Below, piece after piece: positions 600-7,084 of a DNA stretch of 7,352 nucleotides. A program made the translations under genes and the position numbers. Numbering within the stretch: the first letter of the stretch is position 1; each line of letters opens with the position of its first letter. The stretch lies in the NCBI GenBank assembly GCA_027294185.1, contig JAPUME010000213.1:1-7352 (forward strand), written 5' to 3'. The DNA is from Acidobacteriota bacterium (GTDB lineage Bacteria; Acidobacteriota; Terriglobia; UBA7540; JAPUME01). The notes below the pieces were generated by a model, which had not been told where the DNA came from, made no database searches, and saw only the letters and a program-made list of their open reading frames with translations.

Positions 600-1799
600 A
601 TGGCCGCCAAGATAATTATGCCGAAGCTGGGAATGGAAATGACCGAAGCCTCGGTAACCGCCTGGTCATTCAAAGAAGGCGAGGCGGTGAAAAAGGGCGA
701 TGTCGTGGTTCAAATTGAAACCGAGAAGATCACCTACGAGGTTGAGTCGCCCGAGACGGGAGTATTGCGGAAGATATTCGTCTGCGACGGAGAAACGAAG
801 CCCATCGGAGAGTTACTGGGTGTAATCACCGCTGAGGGCGAGGCCTTTGACGAGCGGGAGTTTGCCTCCCCTATGGCTCCACCCAAATCAGCAGTGAAGG
901 AGACCGCCACGCCCACCTCGCCCCGTTCGGAACCTCCTTCCTCAGCCCCAGCAAGGGGAGATCGGATCGTTGCTTCCCCATTAGCCAAGAAGCTGGCAAA
1001 GGAAAAAGGCATCGACCTCGCCACAGTCGCAGGCTCTGGCCCCGCGGGACGTATCACCGAAAAAGATATTTTCGCCGCCCTAGAGGCGGGACAGAACTCA
1101 CGGCCCGCGAAAACCGCCATCCCTGTAACACGGATGCGAAAAATCATTGCCGACCGGCTGACTAGGAGCTGGACTGCTCCCCACATCTATCTCACGATGG
1201 AAATCGACGCGACGGAATTGGTGAAACTCCGAGAGGCATTGCTGCCGGAAATCGAGCGCGAAACAGGCCGCAAGCTCGCCTACAACGATCTTTTGATCAA
1301 GACCCTTGCATCGGCGATTGAAAAGTTTCCCATCCTGACCGGAATCTTCAAAGGCGACCAAATCGAAATCCCTGACGAGATCAATATCGGGCTGGCCGTG
1401 GCGCTCGAAGAGGGCTTGGTGGTGCCGGTGATCCGTCGGGTGAATGAGTGCAGTCTGGCGGAGATCGTTTGCCGACGCACGGATTTGGTGGAGCGCGCCA
1501 AAGGGAAAAAACTTGGTGTTGACGAGCTTTCCGGAGGCACTTTTTCCCTTACGAACCTGGGGATGTTCGAGGTGGATTCGTTCACGGCCATCCTAAATCC
1601 TCCTCAAAGCGGGATTCTTTCGGTTGGAAAATTGAAGGATACACCCGTGGTAAGAGACGGTACCATCCACGTTGCACCGGTCCTGAAGCTGGTGCTCGGC
1701 GCGGACCATCGCGTGGTGGACGGGGCGGTAGCTGCCCAATTTCTGCAGGAGATAAAGCGAATCCTGGAAAGCGCGCGTGAACTCCTGATTCCCAGCTAG
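600..1799 (+). CDS. Dihydrolipoamide acyltransferase (E2) of a 2-oxo-acid/acetoin dehydrogenase complex
   Basis: The 399-residue cytoplasmic protein is the E2 core. It takes the acyl group from E1 on a swinging lipoyl arm and transfers it to CoA. A lipoyl domain fills about residues 2-78, with the probable lipoylated lysine at K43 in the ETEKI turn. A Pro/Ala/Ser-rich linker follows (about 85-122), then a peripheral-subunit-binding domain (about 123-160, with GSGPAGRITEKDI). The catalytic domain (about 171-399) has TFSLTNLGMF at 314-323 and the active-site motif HRVVDG with H370 and D374. There is one lipoyl domain, and the length is normal for a bacterial E2. The ATG at 600 is preceded by AAGGAAG at 581-587, a slightly long 12-nt spacing. 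E1 alpha starts 33 bp after its stop, so the genes are probably co-transcribed. The acoC role is inferred from its neighbours; the E2 sequence alone does not separate acetoin from pyruvate or branched-chain substrates. Confidence 0.93.
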   Translation: MAAKIIMPKLGMEMTEASVTAWSFKEGEAVKKGDVVVQIETEKITYEVESPETGVLRKIFVCDGETKPIGELLGVITAEGEAFDEREFASPMAPPKSAVKETATPTSPRSEPPSSAPARGDRIVASPLAKKLAKEKGIDLATVAGSGPAGRITEKDIFAALEAGQNSRPAKTAIPVTRMRKIIADRLTRSWTAPHIYLTMEIDATELVKLREALLPEIERETGRKLAYNDLLIKTLASAIEKFPILTGIFKGDQIEIPDEINIGLAVALEEGLVVPVIRRVNECSLAEIVCRRTDLVERAKGKKLGVDELSGGTFSLTNLGMFEVDSFTAILNPPQSGILSVGKLKDTPVVRDGTIHVAPVLKLVLGADHRVVDGAVAAQFLQEIKRILESARELLIPS

Positions 1800-1832
1800 G
1801 TCGAACGCCTGATACACTGGAGGCAAGCCAAA

Positions 1833-2801
1833 ATGCACTTGAAGCGAGAAAAAGCGTTGTGGGTCTATGAACGAATGGTCTTGATACGGAAATTCGAGGA
1901 CAAGGTTCACGACCTGTTCTCGGCGGGCAAGATTCCGGGATTCGTGCATCTCTATGCCGGTGAGGAAGCGGTGGCCGTCGGCGTCTGCGCGCACTTTCGC
2001 ACCGACGACTTCCTGACCAGCACGCACCGCGGCCACGGGCATTGCATCGCCAAGGGCGTGGAGGTTCGCGGCATGATGGCCGAGCTTTTCGGCAAGGCCA
2101 CGGGGTCGTGCAAGGGCAAGGGCGGCTCGATGCACATCGCCGACGTTGAGAAGGGAATGCTCGGCGCAAACGGCATCGTCGGCGGAGGCGCGCCGCTCGC
2201 CTGCGGCGCGGCGCTGACGGCACGCGTCAAGAAAACCGACCAGGTCACGGCCTGCTTTTTCGGTGACGGCGGGGCGAGTCAGGGCACCTTCCACGAAGCG
2301 CTCAACCTAGCTTCCATCTGGAAGCTGCCGGTGATTTTTGTCTGCGAGAACAATCTTTATGCGGAGGCCAGTCCCGTGAAGTACACGCTCAACGTCGAAA
2401 ACGTCGCCGATCGGGCCGCAGGCTACGGTGTGCCGGGCGTGATTGCAGACGGCATGAGCTTTTTCGATGTTTACGAAAAAGCCGGAGAAGCGGTCCGCCG
2501 CGCGCGCGCCGGTGAAGGACCCACGCTGATCGAGGCCAAGACCTACCGCTTCTACGGCCACTTCGAGGGAGACCCGGTCAACTACCGGCCTAAAGACGAA
2601 GAGCAGGCGTACCGAAAGCGGGATCCGATTACGGATTTCAAACAGAAAGTTCTCGCTAAAAAGTTGCTGAAAGCTGACGATCTTGAAAAGATCGAGAAGG
2701 AAACTCAGGCGGAGGTTGACGCCGCATTGGAATTTGCCGAATCCAGCCCGTTTCCGAAACTTGAAGAGATTTTAACGGACGTCTACGTGAACTACCCTTA
2801 G
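1833..2801 (+). CDS. acoA: Thiamine-diphosphate-dependent E1 component, alpha subunit (acetoin dehydrogenase type)
   Basis: This 322-residue protein would form an alpha2beta2 E1 with the gene that follows. E1 cleaves the substrate with thiamine diphosphate and reductively acylates the E2 lipoyl group. The ThDP/Mg binding motif is clear: GDG at 144-146 and NN at 173-174, with the usual spacing of about 28 residues. STHRGHGH (63-70) and YGHFEGD (241-247) match the cofactor-channel loops of the family. GFVHLYAGEEAVAVGVCAH, KGKGGSMHIAD and GMLGANGIVG are characteristic of the AcoA branch and less like classical PdhA; this is from memory of the family, not a search. The length is normal. The ATG is set by GGAGG at 1819-1823, nine bases upstream. 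The order E2, E1 alpha, E1 beta differs from the common acoA-acoB-acoC order. A pyruvate or branched-chain 2-oxo acid could be the real substrate. Confidence 0.9.
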   Translation: MHLKREKALWVYERMVLIRKFEDKVHDLFSAGKIPGFVHLYAGEEAVAVGVCAHFRTDDFLTSTHRGHGHCIAKGVEVRGMMAELFGKATGSCKGKGGSMHIADVEKGMLGANGIVGGGAPLACGAALTARVKKTDQVTACFFGDGGASQGTFHEALNLASIWKLPVIFVCENNLYAEASPVKYTLNVENVADRAAGYGVPGVIADGMSFFDVYEKAGEAVRRARAGEGPTLIEAKTYRFYGHFEGDPVNYRPKDEEQAYRKRDPITDFKQKVLAKKLLKADDLEKIEKETQAEVDAALEFAESSPFPKLEEILTDVYVNYP

Positions 2802-2804
2802 CGC

Positions 2805-2854
2805 TCAGAATAGCATCAGAAGCGCAAGGAATTCAGAAGATCAGGAAATCAGAG
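2805..2854 (+). repeat. Short tandem-like TCAGRR repeats in the E1 alpha/E1 beta spacer
   Basis: The 64-bp spacer contains five copies of TCAGAA or a close variant: 2805-2810, 2816-2821, 2833-2838, 2841-2846 (TCAGGA) and 2849-2854 (TCAGAG). Pitch varies (11, 17, 8, 8 bp). The last copy runs into the ribosome-binding site AGAGGAG (2851-2857) of the E1 beta gene. The purine-rich, unstructured leader may simply favour translation. Confidence 0.45.
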
Positions 2855-2865
2855 GAGCATTTGCC

Positions 2866-3879
2866 ATGGCGGAGAGAGAACTCACTTACCGCGAAGCGAT
2901 CAACGAGGCGTTAAGGCAGGAGATGCGCCGCGACGACACTATTATTCTGATGGGAGAAGACATCGCCGGCGGCAGCGGCCAGCCCAAGGAGTTGCAGGAC
3001 GCCTGGGGAGGTGTTCTGGGCGTCACCAAGGGCCTCTATACCGAGTTCGGCGCCGATCGCGTGCTGGACACACCGATTTCCGAGTCCGGCTACATCGGTG
3101 CGGCCATCGGCGCAGCGGCTACGGGCCTGCGCCCGGTGGCGGAGTTGATGTTCGTCGGTTTTATGGGCGTTTGTCTTGATCAACTGTTCAACCAGGCGGC
3201 GAAACTCCGCTACATGTTCGGGGGAAAGGCCAGAGTCCCGGTCACCATCCGCACCATGATCGGCGCAGGGTTGCGGGCCGCAGCCCAACATTCGACGGTG
3301 GACTACTCCGTGCTGACCCACTTCCCCGGGCTCAAATGCGTCGCCCCATCCTCAGCCTATGATGCCAAGGGTTTGCTGATCGCGGCGATTCGGGACGACG
3401 ACCCGGTGATCTTCTGTGAGCACAAGGCGCTTTACGGCGAAAAGAGTCCCGTTCCGGAAGAGAGCTACGTGGTCCCTCTGGGCACCGCGGACATCAAGCG
3501 CGAAGGACGCGACGTAACCCTGGTGGCGTTCGCCAAGATGGTTCACACCGCGCTGGCGGCAGCCGACGAGTTGAGCAAGAGCGGCATTCAGGCCGAAGTG
3601 GTGGACCCGCGCTCGCTCTCACCGCTCGATGAAGGGACCATTCTCGAATCGGTCAAGAAGACCCACCGCCTCGTCGTGGTGGACGAAGACACTCCGCGCT
3701 GCGGCATGGCGACCGACATCGTCTCGCTCGTCTCGCAGAAGGCTTTCGACTACCTGGACGCCCCGCCGCAGATGGTCACACCACCCCATACACCCGTGCC
3801 GTTCAGTCCCGTACTCGAAGATTCTTACCTTCCCACCCCCGAGCAGGTGGCCGACGCGGTCCGAGGCACACTTGACTGA
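2866..3879 (+). CDS. acoB: Thiamine-diphosphate-dependent E1 component, beta subunit (acetoin dehydrogenase type)
   Basis: The 337-residue protein has the transketolase-like pyrimidine domain followed by the transketolase C-terminal domain, and partners the E1 alpha subunit. DTPISE at 68-73 supplies the conserved glutamate (E73) that activates the thiamine aminopyrimidine ring, and AAQHS at 139-143 carries the conserved active-site histidine H142. Further family markers are PVAELMFVGFMGVCLDQ (90-106), FNQAAKLRYMFGG (108-120), YDAKGLLIAAIRDDDPV (165-181) and a C-terminal PHTPVPFSP (307-315). DAWGGVLGVTKGL near residue 45 and the overall match favour AcoB over pyruvate dehydrogenase beta. The ATG is set by AGAGGAG at 2851-2857, eight bases upstream. 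The gene follows E1 alpha by 64 bp and closes the cluster. No dihydrolipoamide dehydrogenase gene follows; instead the next gene is convergent. Confidence 0.92.
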   Translation: MAERELTYREAINEALRQEMRRDDTIILMGEDIAGGSGQPKELQDAWGGVLGVTKGLYTEFGADRVLDTPISESGYIGAAIGAAATGLRPVAELMFVGFMGVCLDQLFNQAAKLRYMFGGKARVPVTIRTMIGAGLRAAAQHSTVDYSVLTHFPGLKCVAPSSAYDAKGLLIAAIRDDDPVIFCEHKALYGEKSPVPEESYVVPLGTADIKREGRDVTLVAFAKMVHTALAAADELSKSGIQAEVVDPRSLSPLDEGTILESVKKTHRLVVVDEDTPRCGMATDIVSLVSQKAFDYLDAPPQMVTPPHTPVPFSPVLEDSYLPTPEQVADAVRGTLD

Positions 3880-4004: not shown

Positions 4005-4037
4005 AGCGGTTTCCCTCCGGGAACCCTAACAACCGCT
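4005..4037. terminator. Two-tier inverted repeat at the 3' end of the receptor gene (weak terminator candidate)
   Basis: AGCGGTT (4005-4011) pairs perfectly with AACCGCT (4031-4037). Inside it, TCCC (4012-4015) can pair with GGGA (4019-4022). The right arm overlaps the TAG stop of the receptor gene (4036-4038 on the minus strand). It could act on transcripts from either direction in this convergent gap, but neither strand shows a T-tract. Confidence 0.3.
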
Positions 4038-6465
4038 AGAAACCGAAGCGGATACCTACGTTTACCTGCTGGAACATGCCGAGTTGGATCCCCTGCGGAG
4101 CCCGGGAGGAGATGTAGATCTTGTTTGTCAGGTTCTTGATGGCCACATAGAGCTTAATCTGGTATCGCTCCCGCTGGTAGGTATAGTCGAACCCCAAATT
4201 CCAGAGCATAAAGCCCGGCAGCTTGCCCACCGTTCCGTCGAAAGAGGGCGCAAACGTATTCAGGTTGTCACCGAACTGGTTCCCCACGAAGGAACTGTCC
4301 AGCTGCATGCCGAACCCCTGCGGCTGGCGAACCCCAACCAGGAAAGAAAAGGTGTTTTTCGGAGCATAGGGAAGACGGTTCCCGCCATACAGGGCATTGT
4401 TAGTGAACTCGGCCACCGGCAGATACATATACCGGAAATCGGTAAAGACCACCGCGGGAGCCTTGACCCATTCATTCCAATTCACCCGCAGGCTGGTTTC
4501 AAACCCCTGGTGAAGCGTGGCGCCGCCGTTGATCAACGTCGTGGTAGCACCGCCCGACTCCGCACTCGGTATGATCTGATTCCGAAAGTCCAGCCGGAAA
4601 AACGTGACCTCTCCGGTTACAGCTCGATGAGGTCCCAAACGGACGCCCGCCTCGAAGTTCCAACTCATCTCCGCATTCAGATCCAGGGATTCCCCGCTTC
4701 GAGTTATCGCATCCTTGGTTCGCGGCGGAGAAAAGCCTCGGTGAACCCCTCCGAACAACGTGATCGTAGGAACCAACTTATAGGATATCCCCAACCCGGG
4801 GATCAGCGCAGTGAGCTCGTCCGTTTTGCGGACGTCCACATCGGTAGGAATCCCGCCAACGCGCTGGCGGAAAATGTGCCGCTCGTAGCGATAGTTCTCC
4901 ACGCGGATTCCGGGTGTGATGATCAAGTTGTCAAAAAGAAAGAAGCGATTCTGGAGGAAAAACGACCAGGCATTTCCGAAGCGGTCCTCATCGTCCCGCA
5001 GGATCCCCGTAAGAGAATCGAAGCTGGCACCGTTAATGCGCTTGTCATCGGCCGCCTCATGAATATAACGGACACCCGTATCAAGCTTCCCACGAACGCC
5101 TCCGAACTCATGCTCCAGAGCCAGGTTGCTTTGAATGCCAAGGACATCGAAGCGGCGGTTGCGGTTGCCGGTCGAATCACGCAGAAAAATCGCGCCGCCC
5201 GGGACGGTGAGGTCGCCCACGACGCCGATGTATTCCCTTCCCGCATCCAGGCGATCCCAGTCCTGCCGTCGCCAGTTACGAACAGTGTTATACGCAAAAA
5301 AAGTCGTCATTAAAACCGCGTGAGGATTCAAGATGGCCGTGTGTAAAAGTGAGCCGGAGTATCTCCGAACCCTTAGAAGATCGCTTGGCACCGCGTTCTG
5401 GTTTGGGTCCGTGAGGAACATGGGCGTGGTTAATCCCAAATACGTGGAATTCGATTTTTCTTCATAGACCCCCAGCTTGAAAGCGAAACTGTGATTTTCG
5501 GAAGGTTTCAGGGTGAACTTAAACTGAAAATCATCAATGTTGAAGTAGAAGCCTCGAAATCCGTTCCCCTGTTTTCGAAGGTAGTTCAGAAACCAACCGA
5601 CGCTCTGATTGGCATTGCTCCCTCCCACCGAAGCCTGGCCGTTGAAGAATCCTCCTTGTCCGCCCTCCACTTTTAACTGCCCGTGAGTCGAGGAGGGCGG
5701 GTCCGGGGTGACAAAGTTCACAACTCCCCCCACCGTCTGTGGGCCGTGCACGATCTGACCACTGCCCTTGAGTACCTCCACCCTCCGCATCCGGTCGATG
5801 GGGGGTGAGTAATACATTTCCGGCTCCCCGTAGGGGGCCAGGGCGATCGGGATGCCGTCCTCCATCATCAGCACCTTTCGGCTCCGGTCCGGATTGAGCC
5901 CGCGAATCCCAATATTGAGACGCATACCGACCGGCCCGGAATCCTCCCGCAGAGTAATGCCGGGAACCCTGCGCAACACTTCATTGGCATCCATGGGGTT
6001 CGACTCAGCCAGCTCCTCTTTCTGAATCAAGAAAACCGAGCCGGGAATTTCCAGCAAAACTTCCCTGGATTCGCCCACCACCTCAATGGAAGTTTCACTT
6101 CTACGGACGGAGACGAATTGCAGGTTCTGTTTTACAGCCGAGTCTGCATCGACTTGAATTTGCGCTTCCACCTGCTCAAAATCATCCGACAAGGCGCGAA
6201 GGATCAGAGAACCCGCCGCCAAATTCTCAAACCGGAATAGACCGGAGGGGTCGGTCCAGGTCTTGACGCCCCCCGGCTCCACCACGACCTTGACGCCCCC
6301 CAAGGGTACCTCTAAGGGGTCCGAAACAGTCCCCTCCACGCTCTGCGCTGCCGCGCCCCATGGAATCCACAGAAAAAGAATGCATGCCAAAGCGAACCGG
6401 CGAAGGGCCATTCTCTTCGCCCTACAACTTCCAGAAAATAAAGAGCTGATACCTTCCCCTTCCAT
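4036..6465 (-). CDS. TonB-dependent outer-membrane receptor, FecA-like, with N-terminal carboxypeptidase-regulatory-like domain
   Basis: With the ATG at 6465 the protein has 809 residues and would import a metal chelate across the outer membrane using TonB energy. A signal peptide (about 19-40: MALRRF, hydrophobic core, then AAA before QS) is followed by a carboxypeptidase-regulatory-like beta-sandwich (about 43-108), a TonB-box-like SIEVVG (about 126-131), a plug (about 135-255) and a 22-strand-type barrel ending in F809, the usual C-terminal aromatic. The plug segment DGIPIALAPYGEPEMYYSP and GPQTVGGVVNFVT resemble FecA-type ferric-citrate receptors; the ligand itself cannot be read. AAGGA at 6475-6479, nine bases upstream, supports ATG 6465. 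A TTG at 6483 lacks a ribosome site. The ATG at 6411 would give a classical short signal peptide (791 residues) and is a real alternative. The Fur-family gene lies 87 bp upstream on the same strand, with an operator-like site between. Confidence 0.93.
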   Translation of the reverse strand: MEGEGISSLFSGSCRAKRMALRRFALACILFLWIPWGAAAQSVEGTVSDPLEVPLGGVKVVVEPGGVKTWTDPSGLFRFENLAAGSLILRALSDDFEQVEAQIQVDADSAVKQNLQFVSVRRSETSIEVVGESREVLLEIPGSVFLIQKEELAESNPMDANEVLRRVPGITLREDSGPVGMRLNIGIRGLNPDRSRKVLMMEDGIPIALAPYGEPEMYYSPPIDRMRRVEVLKGSGQIVHGPQTVGGVVNFVTPDPPSSTHGQLKVEGGQGGFFNGQASVGGSNANQSVGWFLNYLRKQGNGFRGFYFNIDDFQFKFTLKPSENHSFAFKLGVYEEKSNSTYLGLTTPMFLTDPNQNAVPSDLLRVRRYSGSLLHTAILNPHAVLMTTFFAYNTVRNWRRQDWDRLDAGREYIGVVGDLTVPGGAIFLRDSTGNRNRRFDVLGIQSNLALEHEFGGVRGKLDTGVRYIHEAADDKRINGASFDSLTGILRDDEDRFGNAWSFFLQNRFFLFDNLIITPGIRVENYRYERHIFRQRVGGIPTDVDVRKTDELTALIPGLGISYKLVPTITLFGGVHRGFSPPRTKDAITRSGESLDLNAEMSWNFEAGVRLGPHRAVTGEVTFFRLDFRNQIIPSAESGGATTTLINGGATLHQGFETSLRVNWNEWVKAPAVVFTDFRYMYLPVAEFTNNALYGGNRLPYAPKNTFSFLVGVRQPQGFGMQLDSSFVGNQFGDNLNTFAPSFDGTVGKLPGFMLWNLGFDYTYQRERYQIKLYVAIKNLTNKIYISSRAPQGIQLGMFQQVNVGIRFGF

Positions 6466-6474
6466 GTGCCCTTT

Positions 6475-6479
6475 TCCTT
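6475..6479 (-). promoter_or_regulatory. Ribosome-binding site deciding the receptor start
   Basis: On the minus strand, AAGGA ends nine bases before the ATG at 6465. The upstream TTG (6483) and the downstream ATG (6411) have no comparable site; 6411 is preceded only by a weak GAAGAG. This favours an n-region about 18 residues longer than usual for the signal peptide. Confidence 0.5.
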
Positions 6480-6508
6480 TCAAGCCTTTTTTCGTCCCTT
6501 ATCTCTAC

Positions 6509-6525
6509 TTGCAATTCAGTTGCAA
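6509..6525 (-). promoter_or_regulatory. Operator-like site TTGCAA-N5-TTGCAA upstream of the TonB receptor gene
   Basis: TTGCAA at 6509-6514 and 6520-6525 flank a five-base spacer, 44 bp before the ATG at 6465. The 20 bases 6509-6528 match 7033-7052, before the Fur-family gene, at 18 positions. The core TGCAAnTnAnTTGCA has the 7-1-7 layout typical of Fur-family boxes. A weak minus-strand promoter could use the inner TTGCAA (6525-6520) as -35 and GATAAG (6503-6498) as -10, which would put the operator across the promoter; I see no better promoter here. Confidence 0.7.
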
Positions 6526-6552
6526 CATTAAGACATAAAAAAGCAAACTCTA

Positions 6553-7023
6553 TTAACCTCGACAGGCCGCGCAAATCCCGCCCGCCTCCATCCGTACCAC
6601 TTGAATCGAAAACCGCCGTTCGCGCTCGATTTGCCCTTTGAGTTTCTCGAAAAGCGAGCTTTCAAATTCCATAATGGCTCCACACTTCAGGCAAGCCAGA
6701 TGCAGGTGGTCCCGGGTGGTGCGGGCCTCGTAGAAGTGCTTTTCCCCTTCCAAGTGCATCAAGTCCAACTCATCCACCAGGCCATGTTTTTTTAGTAACG
6801 AAAGCGTCCGGTAGACAGTGACTTTGTTAAGCGTGGAATCACGCGACCGGGCCCGCCGCCAAAGCGTAAGAACGTCCAGATGGCGGTCGGCGCGTTGGAT
6901 GAGGTCCACTAGGATCCTGCGCTGGTGCGTCATGCGAACCCCGCGAGAGATCAACTCTTCGGCCAGGTTGCGGCGCGGATTCCGCTGCGCGGCGAGCATG
7001 GTGTGTTTCGGCTGAGTCCCCAT
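6553..7023 (-). CDS. Fur-family metal-responsive transcriptional regulator
   Basis: The 156-residue cytoplasmic protein has the Fur layout: an N-terminal winged helix with the recognition region NKVTVYRTLSLLKKHGLV (66-83), then a metal-binding dimerisation domain. Two CXXC pairs, CLKC (111-114) and CAAC (151-154), form the expected structural zinc site. The probable regulatory site is H48, E99, H106, H108 and E119, read by aligning DHLHLACLKCG with Fur and PerR. A glutamate at 119, where peroxide-sensing PerR has aspartate, favours metal sensing over peroxide sensing. The third-histidine position used by the nickel regulator Nur is R104 here, which argues against a Nur-type site. Length is typical. 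The ATG at 7023 has no strong ribosome site; an ATG at 6999 is possible but no better. The next gene on the strand is the TonB receptor. An operator-like site over the predicted transcription start implies autoregulation. Confidence 0.93.
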   Translation of the reverse strand: MGTQPKHTMLAAQRNPRRNLAEELISRGVRMTHQRRILVDLIQRADRHLDVLTLWRRARSRDSTLNKVTVYRTLSLLKKHGLVDELDLMHLEGEKHFYEARTTRDHLHLACLKCGAIMEFESSLFEKLKGQIERERRFSIQVVRMEAGGICAACRG

Positions 7024-7032
7024 AAATTCTTA

Positions 7033-7049
7033 TTGCAAGTGAGTTGCAA
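7033..7049 (-). promoter_or_regulatory. Operator-like site TTGCAA-N5-TTGCAA over the transcription start of the Fur-family gene
   Basis: TTGCAA at 7033-7038 and 7044-7049 flank GTGAG. The site sits immediately downstream of the predicted -10 box (7055-7060), covering roughly +1 to +16, a classical repressor position. It is nearly identical to the site before the receptor gene, and ends ten bases before the ATG at 7023. Confidence 0.72.
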
Positions 7050-7054
7050 CATGG

Positions 7055-7084
7055 ATTTTACTCCCCCACCGCTCAATTTGTCAA
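7055..7084 (-). promoter_or_regulatory. Sigma70-type promoter of the Fur-family gene
   Basis: On the minus strand, TTGACA (7084-7079, perfect -35) is followed after 18 bp by TAAAAT (7060-7055, five of six matches to TATAAT). Transcription would begin near 7048, giving a leader of about 25 bases before the ATG at 7023. The start point falls inside the operator-like repeat. Confidence 0.7.

Follow-up and report, generated by a model that had tools for sequence, protein, structure and literature searches.

What controls a Fur-family regulator gene and the TonB-dependent receptor gene beside it, and in response to which metal, is the question raised by a 7,352-bp stretch of DNA from an Acidobacteriota bacterium (contig JAPUME010000213.1; hereafter, the window). 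An earlier note on this DNA had drawn attention to two near-identical intergenic elements of the form TTGCAA-N5-TTGCAA and had proposed a local regulon with autoregulation and a lineage-specific box. From sequence comparison, we put the probability at about 0.8 that the two elements are Fur (iron) operators of the regulator encoded between them, serving autoregulation and repression of the receptor gene. The features concerned are as follows:

6509..6525, no strand assigned: candidate operator box 1, TTGCAATTCAGTTGCAA, an exact match between the regulator and receptor genes
7033..7049, no strand assigned: candidate operator box 2, TTGCAAGTGAGTTGCAA, an exact match covering the regulator gene's predicted transcription start
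6553..7023, minus strand: Fur-family regulator gene, 156 aa as listed (PF01475, 88.3 bits; alignments)
4036..6483, minus strand: TonB-dependent receptor gene (PF00593, PF07715 and PF13620 above cut-off)
7079..7084, minus strand: predicted -35 (TTGACA) of the regulator gene, by consensus match only
7055..7060, minus strand: predicted -10 (TAAAAT) of the regulator gene, by consensus match only

Two matched boxes around a Fur-family gene

A pattern search of the window returns two exact copies of TTGCAA-N5-TTGCAA, at 6509-6525 and 7033-7049, and no third match is found there even if two mismatches are allowed. At that tolerance, shuffled windows hold a mean of 0.30 matches, with two or more in 8 of 200 shuffles. 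The mean number of exact matches in Markov copies of the window is 0.0 (order-1) and 0.0013 (order-3), and two exact matches occur in 0 of 1500 copies of either order. What the earlier note had said of the pair is borne out by the sequence, namely that 18 positions are identical between the two 20-mers and that the window has no other paired TTGCAA. The 15-bp core, TGCAAnTnAnTTGCA, does possess the 7-1-7 symmetry ascribed to it. The classical Fur box is TGATAATnATTATCA, and comparison of both box sequences upholds the mismatch to it that had been described.

The placement of the two sites also agrees with the earlier description when checked by coordinates. On the minus strand, a promoter-like TTGACA-18-TAAAAT element (7084-7055, 11 of 12 positions matching the consensus) stops 5 nt short of the box edge at 7049, which places box 2 on the predicted +1 of the regulator gene. 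Among the relatives described below, window included, 25 regulator-upstream boxes have a promoter-like site of at least 9/12 nearby; 12 of them begin 3 to 7 nt past the -10, and the remainder lie at other distances. Box 1 is located between the regulator stop (6553) and the receptor start, which is listed as TTG at 6483 but is more likely the in-frame ATG at 6465. Boxes in the relatives are likewise placed between the regulator and an outer-membrane gene.

Both proteins belong to the families named above. The regulator scores 88.3 bits against PF01475, for which the curated cut-off is 23.1, and it is the sole match to this model in its own assembly. Its ninth residue is where relatives such as L012 and L013 start, so translation may in fact begin at the ATG at 6999. 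The receptor, which has both the plug and the beta-barrel of a TonB-dependent receptor (PF07715 and PF00593), consists of an N-terminal carboxypeptidase-regulatory-like domain, the plug and the barrel. Neither protein attains the cut-off of any NCBIfam model.

The box in related genomes

The named relatives of the regulator are the best 80 of 540, titled Acidobacteriota. A profile search found the regulator in 246 of 248 sequences (247 loci and the window), and 204 distinct loci were left once exact copies were dropped, near copies being kept; 97 of these (window included) had served to generate the idea and 107 were fetched later and held out. Each locus was scanned from about 300 bp before to 260 bp after the regulator gene. 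When the motif is sought at related regulators and TonB receptors, as the earlier note had suggested, it turns up in many relatives: TGCRA-N5-TYGCA flanks the regulator in 84 of the 204 loci (134 sites) and lies within none of the 204 genes. Six rearranged control half-sites are found in 0, 2, 0, 1, 1 and 0 of the loci, respectively. The N5 spacing is preferred, since alternative spacers are seen in 1 (N3), 17 (N4), 3 (N6), 1 (N7) and 9 (N15) loci, and 11 of the 12 boxes of a stricter N4 form are in loci that also hold N5 boxes. Taken together, these counts argue that the box is real and conserved, though in a minority of the family. Most of the N4 variants (L045, L046, L048, L049, L050, L054, L055, L057, L060, L061, L105 and L034) follow shortly after the regulator gene, and most have N5 boxes as neighbours.

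Loci with a local box tend to have an outer-membrane gene next to the regulator. Judged by match to reference proteins, the next gene downstream encodes an outer-membrane protein in 59 of the 84 box loci, with no match in 22 and too little flank in 3; the 59 comprise 18 TonB receptors, 12 large OMP_b-brl_4-type barrels and 29 copies of a protein of about 290 aa. At the 120 boxless loci, the corresponding numbers are 3 (all with the 290-aa gene), 116 and 1. It should be noted that these neighbour counts are uncorrected for relatedness and that Pfam was run on representatives. The protein of about 290 aa, which has no Pfam match, adjoins the regulator in 32 of the 204 loci (e.g. L054:5561-6466 and L057:2906-4335) and looks barrel-like by eye; in L057, a gene for a small cytochrome c comes after it.

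Boxes are also present elsewhere in the genomes of close relatives. The eleven genomes whose regulators are closest (71-76% identical) were scanned for TTGCAAnTnAnTTGCAA with at most one mismatch, which gave 15 boxes in 6 genomes and 1 in the reversed control. A box precedes FeoA-FeoB in three cases (L249, L257 and L260) and the FTR1 permease in five (L250, L252, L253, L258 and L259), while three boxes precede an outer-membrane barrel (L251 and L262 on one contig; L261). Exact boxes in other genomes are found before FTR1 (L282 and L283), a TonB receptor (L280) and an ORF without a Pfam match (L281). In close relatives, iron-uptake genes therefore stand behind the same box, as in the regulon of an iron-responsive Fur, and the boxes before FeoAB, FTR1 and barrels point to an iron-import regulon. 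The local regulon with autoregulation that had been proposed is thus supported, as far as boxes at related regulators and receptors can indicate; its purely local character is not, given the FeoAB and FTR1 boxes elsewhere in the nearest relatives.

The organism's own assembly comprises 1.67 Mb and is about 75% complete; within it, a search for TTGCAAnTnAnTTGCAA that tolerated one mismatch matched the two window boxes and nothing else, and the reversed control gave 0 matches. Two further exact copies of TTGCAA-N5-TTGCAA, on contigs C99 and C223, were rejected as operators because they lie within a shared repeat and are without the nTnAn centre. The repeat, which holds TTGCAAACATTTTGCAA, is 210 bp long and 98% identical between its copies (L001:1375-1584 and L004:1434-1643). 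A tRNA-Ser gene adjoins it in C99 (L001), no tRNA gene was called in C223, and it is perhaps the end of a mobile element.

Several observations weigh against the operator reading or its iron assignment. The box is missing near the regulator gene in 120 of the 204 related loci, including L035-L044, whose regulators (71-76% identical) are the ten closest in the named set, and none of the eleven genomes described above has a box at its own regulator gene. Among the other four boxes in those genomes, two are in unrelated context (L254 and L255), one is at a contig end (L256) and one is uninspected. In the organism's own, incomplete assembly, FTR1 was not found, the best FeoB_N match is a weak 54 bits, compared with 176 to 180 in relatives, and, at the other receptors found (L300, L301 and, scoring below cut-off, L303), the stretches covered contain no box even when 3 mismatches are allowed. 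Iron is thus inferred for this organism from its relatives.

The same data bear on whether the pair arose by chance or marks the site of an unrelated DNA-binding protein. The two exact matches in the unrelated repeat would fit such an origin, as would the boxes in unrelated context in some relatives (L254, L255 and genome G051, see below). Nevertheless, we give this explanation next to no weight, as the box is conserved at related regulators, its N5 spacing is preferred and the six control half-sites are silent.

The metal sensed by the regulator

His48, Glu99, His106, His108, Glu119 and four zinc-site cysteines are conserved in 203 or 204 of the 204 proteins; their assignment to the iron and zinc sites follows that of Fur. 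By residue alignment, the regulator has the 3His/2Glu regulatory metal site of iron-responsive Fur, a make-up described in the excerpted text of PMC4506495. It also has CxxC motifs at 111/114 and 151/154. Positions 105, 107, 126 and 143, which correspond to the second metal site of Fur (H87/D89/E108/H125 in E. coli), are variable among the 204 proteins. In addition, Glu85, Asp87, His90 and His96 are invariant in all of them and could form a further metal site.

The residues at 85 and 87 are relevant to nickel. If the regulator were a nickel sensor like Streptomyces Nur, the receptor would import nickel, and the window boxes do fit the Nur-box consensus. However, the regulator is only 27% identical to Nur, and His70 and His72, nickel ligands of Nur, are replaced by Glu85 and Asp87 in 204 of 204 relatives, so that this nickel site is absent; moreover, the boxes in close relatives precede iron importers. 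With a box that fits and a protein that does not, we rejected membership in Nur and consider nickel sensing very unlikely.

It is unlikely, too, that manganese (as in rhizobial Mur) or zinc is sensed rather than iron. The best solved-structure matches, 5fd6 and 5fd5, are titled Ferric uptake regulation protein and are presumably rhizobial Mur/Fur, and Mn(II) can occupy the same site in the protein. Nevertheless, FeoAB and FTR1 are the targets in the closest relatives, and the CxxC at 111/114 of the window regulator is lacking from 5fd6 in the alignment shown.

A PerR-type peroxide sensor would come to mind since, in score, PerR family models come directly after Fur (60.3 vs. 66.6 bits, all far below their cut-offs). 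The regulator, however, has Glu99, as do 203 of 204 proteins, at a position where PerR has Asp. The catalase gene near the L256 box was also rejected as a target because the box lies beyond the stop of the gene and not before its start. We therefore regard peroxide sensing as exceedingly unlikely.

With iron as the preferred signal, the Fur operators would function as follows. The regulator loaded with ferrous iron would bind both TTGCAAnTnAnTTGCAA boxes. When iron is plentiful, the bound regulator would repress transcription of its own gene as well as of the TonB receptor gene beside it; on the box at +1, it may do so by blocking RNA polymerase. The ligand of the receptor would then be expected to bear iron.

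The recognition helix and comparison with known systems

Base contacts were considered by alignment with MgFur, the Fur protein of Magnetospirillum gryphiswaldense. Tyr71 and Arg72 of the regulator align with Tyr56 and Arg57 of MgFur, which are its base-reading residues according to the excerpts of PMC4506495. The residue before these positions in the TVYR context differs between the two proteins:

6820..6822, minus strand: codon of Val68, the recognition-helix residue preceding TVYR, aligned with Ala53 of MgFur

The residue preceding TVYR (position 53 in MgFur) was compared with base 4 of both half-sites of each box, which gave the following counts:

First set, Ala: 31 of 34 loci with box; sites GG 43, AG 7, AA 2
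First set, Ser: 10 of 10 loci with box; sites AG 11, GG 3, AA 3
First set, Val: 30 of 53 loci with box; sites AA 43, AG 5, AT 1
Held-out set, Ala: 6 of 7 loci with box; sites GG 6, AA 1, CC 1
Held-out set, Val: 7 of 100 loci with box; sites AA 10
Outside the class: 7 new loci, all Ala; 3 with box, GG at 5 of 5 sites

Of the columns tested over the 84 box loci, that of residue 68 best explains base 4, with an adjusted share of 0.87 (next column, 0.79). The comparison was extended to 53 whole genomes, namely: 18 Ala-only, 3 Ser-only and 6 both, which are all those at hand, as well as 26 of 115 Val-only genomes. The Val-only genomes were hand-picked, several of them with a local box, and many of the sites found in whole genomes had already entered the counts above as local boxes. 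Exact TTGCAA boxes were found in 9 of the 53 genomes (8 Val-only, own included, and 1 both) and in 0 of the 18 Ala-only ones. The exact TTGCGA form occurs in 8, namely 6 of the 18 Ala-only genomes, 1 both and 1 Val-only; the last (G051) has its box inside an ORF and was counted as an exception. Reversed controls gave 0 of 53 in both searches. Genome G034 encodes both a Val and an Ala regulator; its FeoAB and FTR1 genes are preceded by TGCAA boxes, and the boxes at its Ala regulator are of the TGCGA form.

The residue preceding TVYR (Val here) thus probably helps to select base 4 of the box (A here). A strict one-residue code, in which Val reads TGCAA, Ala reads TGCGA and Ser reads both, and by which Fur paralogues of Acidobacteriota keep separate regulons in one cell, is a more doubtful proposition. 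The trees yield only 1 to 2 independent contrasts, which is too few, and in the second tree the 20 Val rows and 2 of the Ser rows are on one side of an unsupported branch (support 4), so shared ancestry can explain the link between residue and base; that tree neither establishes nor contradicts a single origin of the Val rows and most of the Ser rows. Furthermore, MgFur, with Ala, bound its natural A/G operator and the A/A form with similar affinity. Given the few contrasts and these affinities, we consider the strict code less likely than not. If true, it would provide a rule, open to experiment, by which Fur proteins tell nearly identical boxes apart, at a helix position (53 in MgFur) that is not named as base-reading in the excerpts of PMC4506495.

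Elsewhere in the window, three genes on the plus strand (600-3879) belong to a 2-oxo acid dehydrogenase complex and are convergent with the receptor gene:

600-1799, plus strand: lipoyl/acyltransferase E2
1833-2801, plus strand: E1
2866-3879, plus strand: transketolase-like E1 beta

Overall, the system is of a known kind but comes from a lineage that has been little studied, and what is newly placed is the box in a Fur group of Acidobacteriota. No description of such a box or iron regulon in Acidobacteriota was found in the open-licence PMC literature. For this mostly uncultured group of Acidobacteriota, the analysis outlines an iron regulon and its box on the basis of sequence.

The box itself is not lineage-specific, as had been supposed, since its pattern matches both the Streptomyces Nur consensus and the crystal operator of MgFur. 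As reported in the excerpts of PMC4506495, TTAATCGCAACTCATTCGCAATTGC is protected by MgFur, and the crystal was obtained with TTAATTGCAAATCATTTGCAATTGC; within the crystal operator lies TTGCAAATCATTTGCAA, which has the same 17-bp pattern as the window boxes. MgFur also has an iron-uptake target, feoAB (the feoAB1 operator), of the kind seen in close relatives of the window regulator, and shares the 3His/2Glu iron site. It differs in that its natural operator, TCGCAACTCATTCGCAA, departs from the 17-bp pattern (both being bound with similar affinity), in having Ala53 in place of Val68, and in lacking, in the alignment shown, the first cysteine pair that the window regulator has. Nur of Streptomyces coelicolor, likewise of the Fur family, has the Nur-box consensus tTGCaa-N5-ttGCAA (excerpts of PMC3919588), which the window boxes fit, whereas the two proteins share the low identity given above and TVYR is preceded by Ser in Nur and by Val in the window regulator. 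Finally, classical Fur has in common with the present system the 7-1-7 symmetry, the iron-uptake targets seen in relatives and the iron-site residues, but the window box is TGCAA-based and the residues of the second metal site are unconserved.
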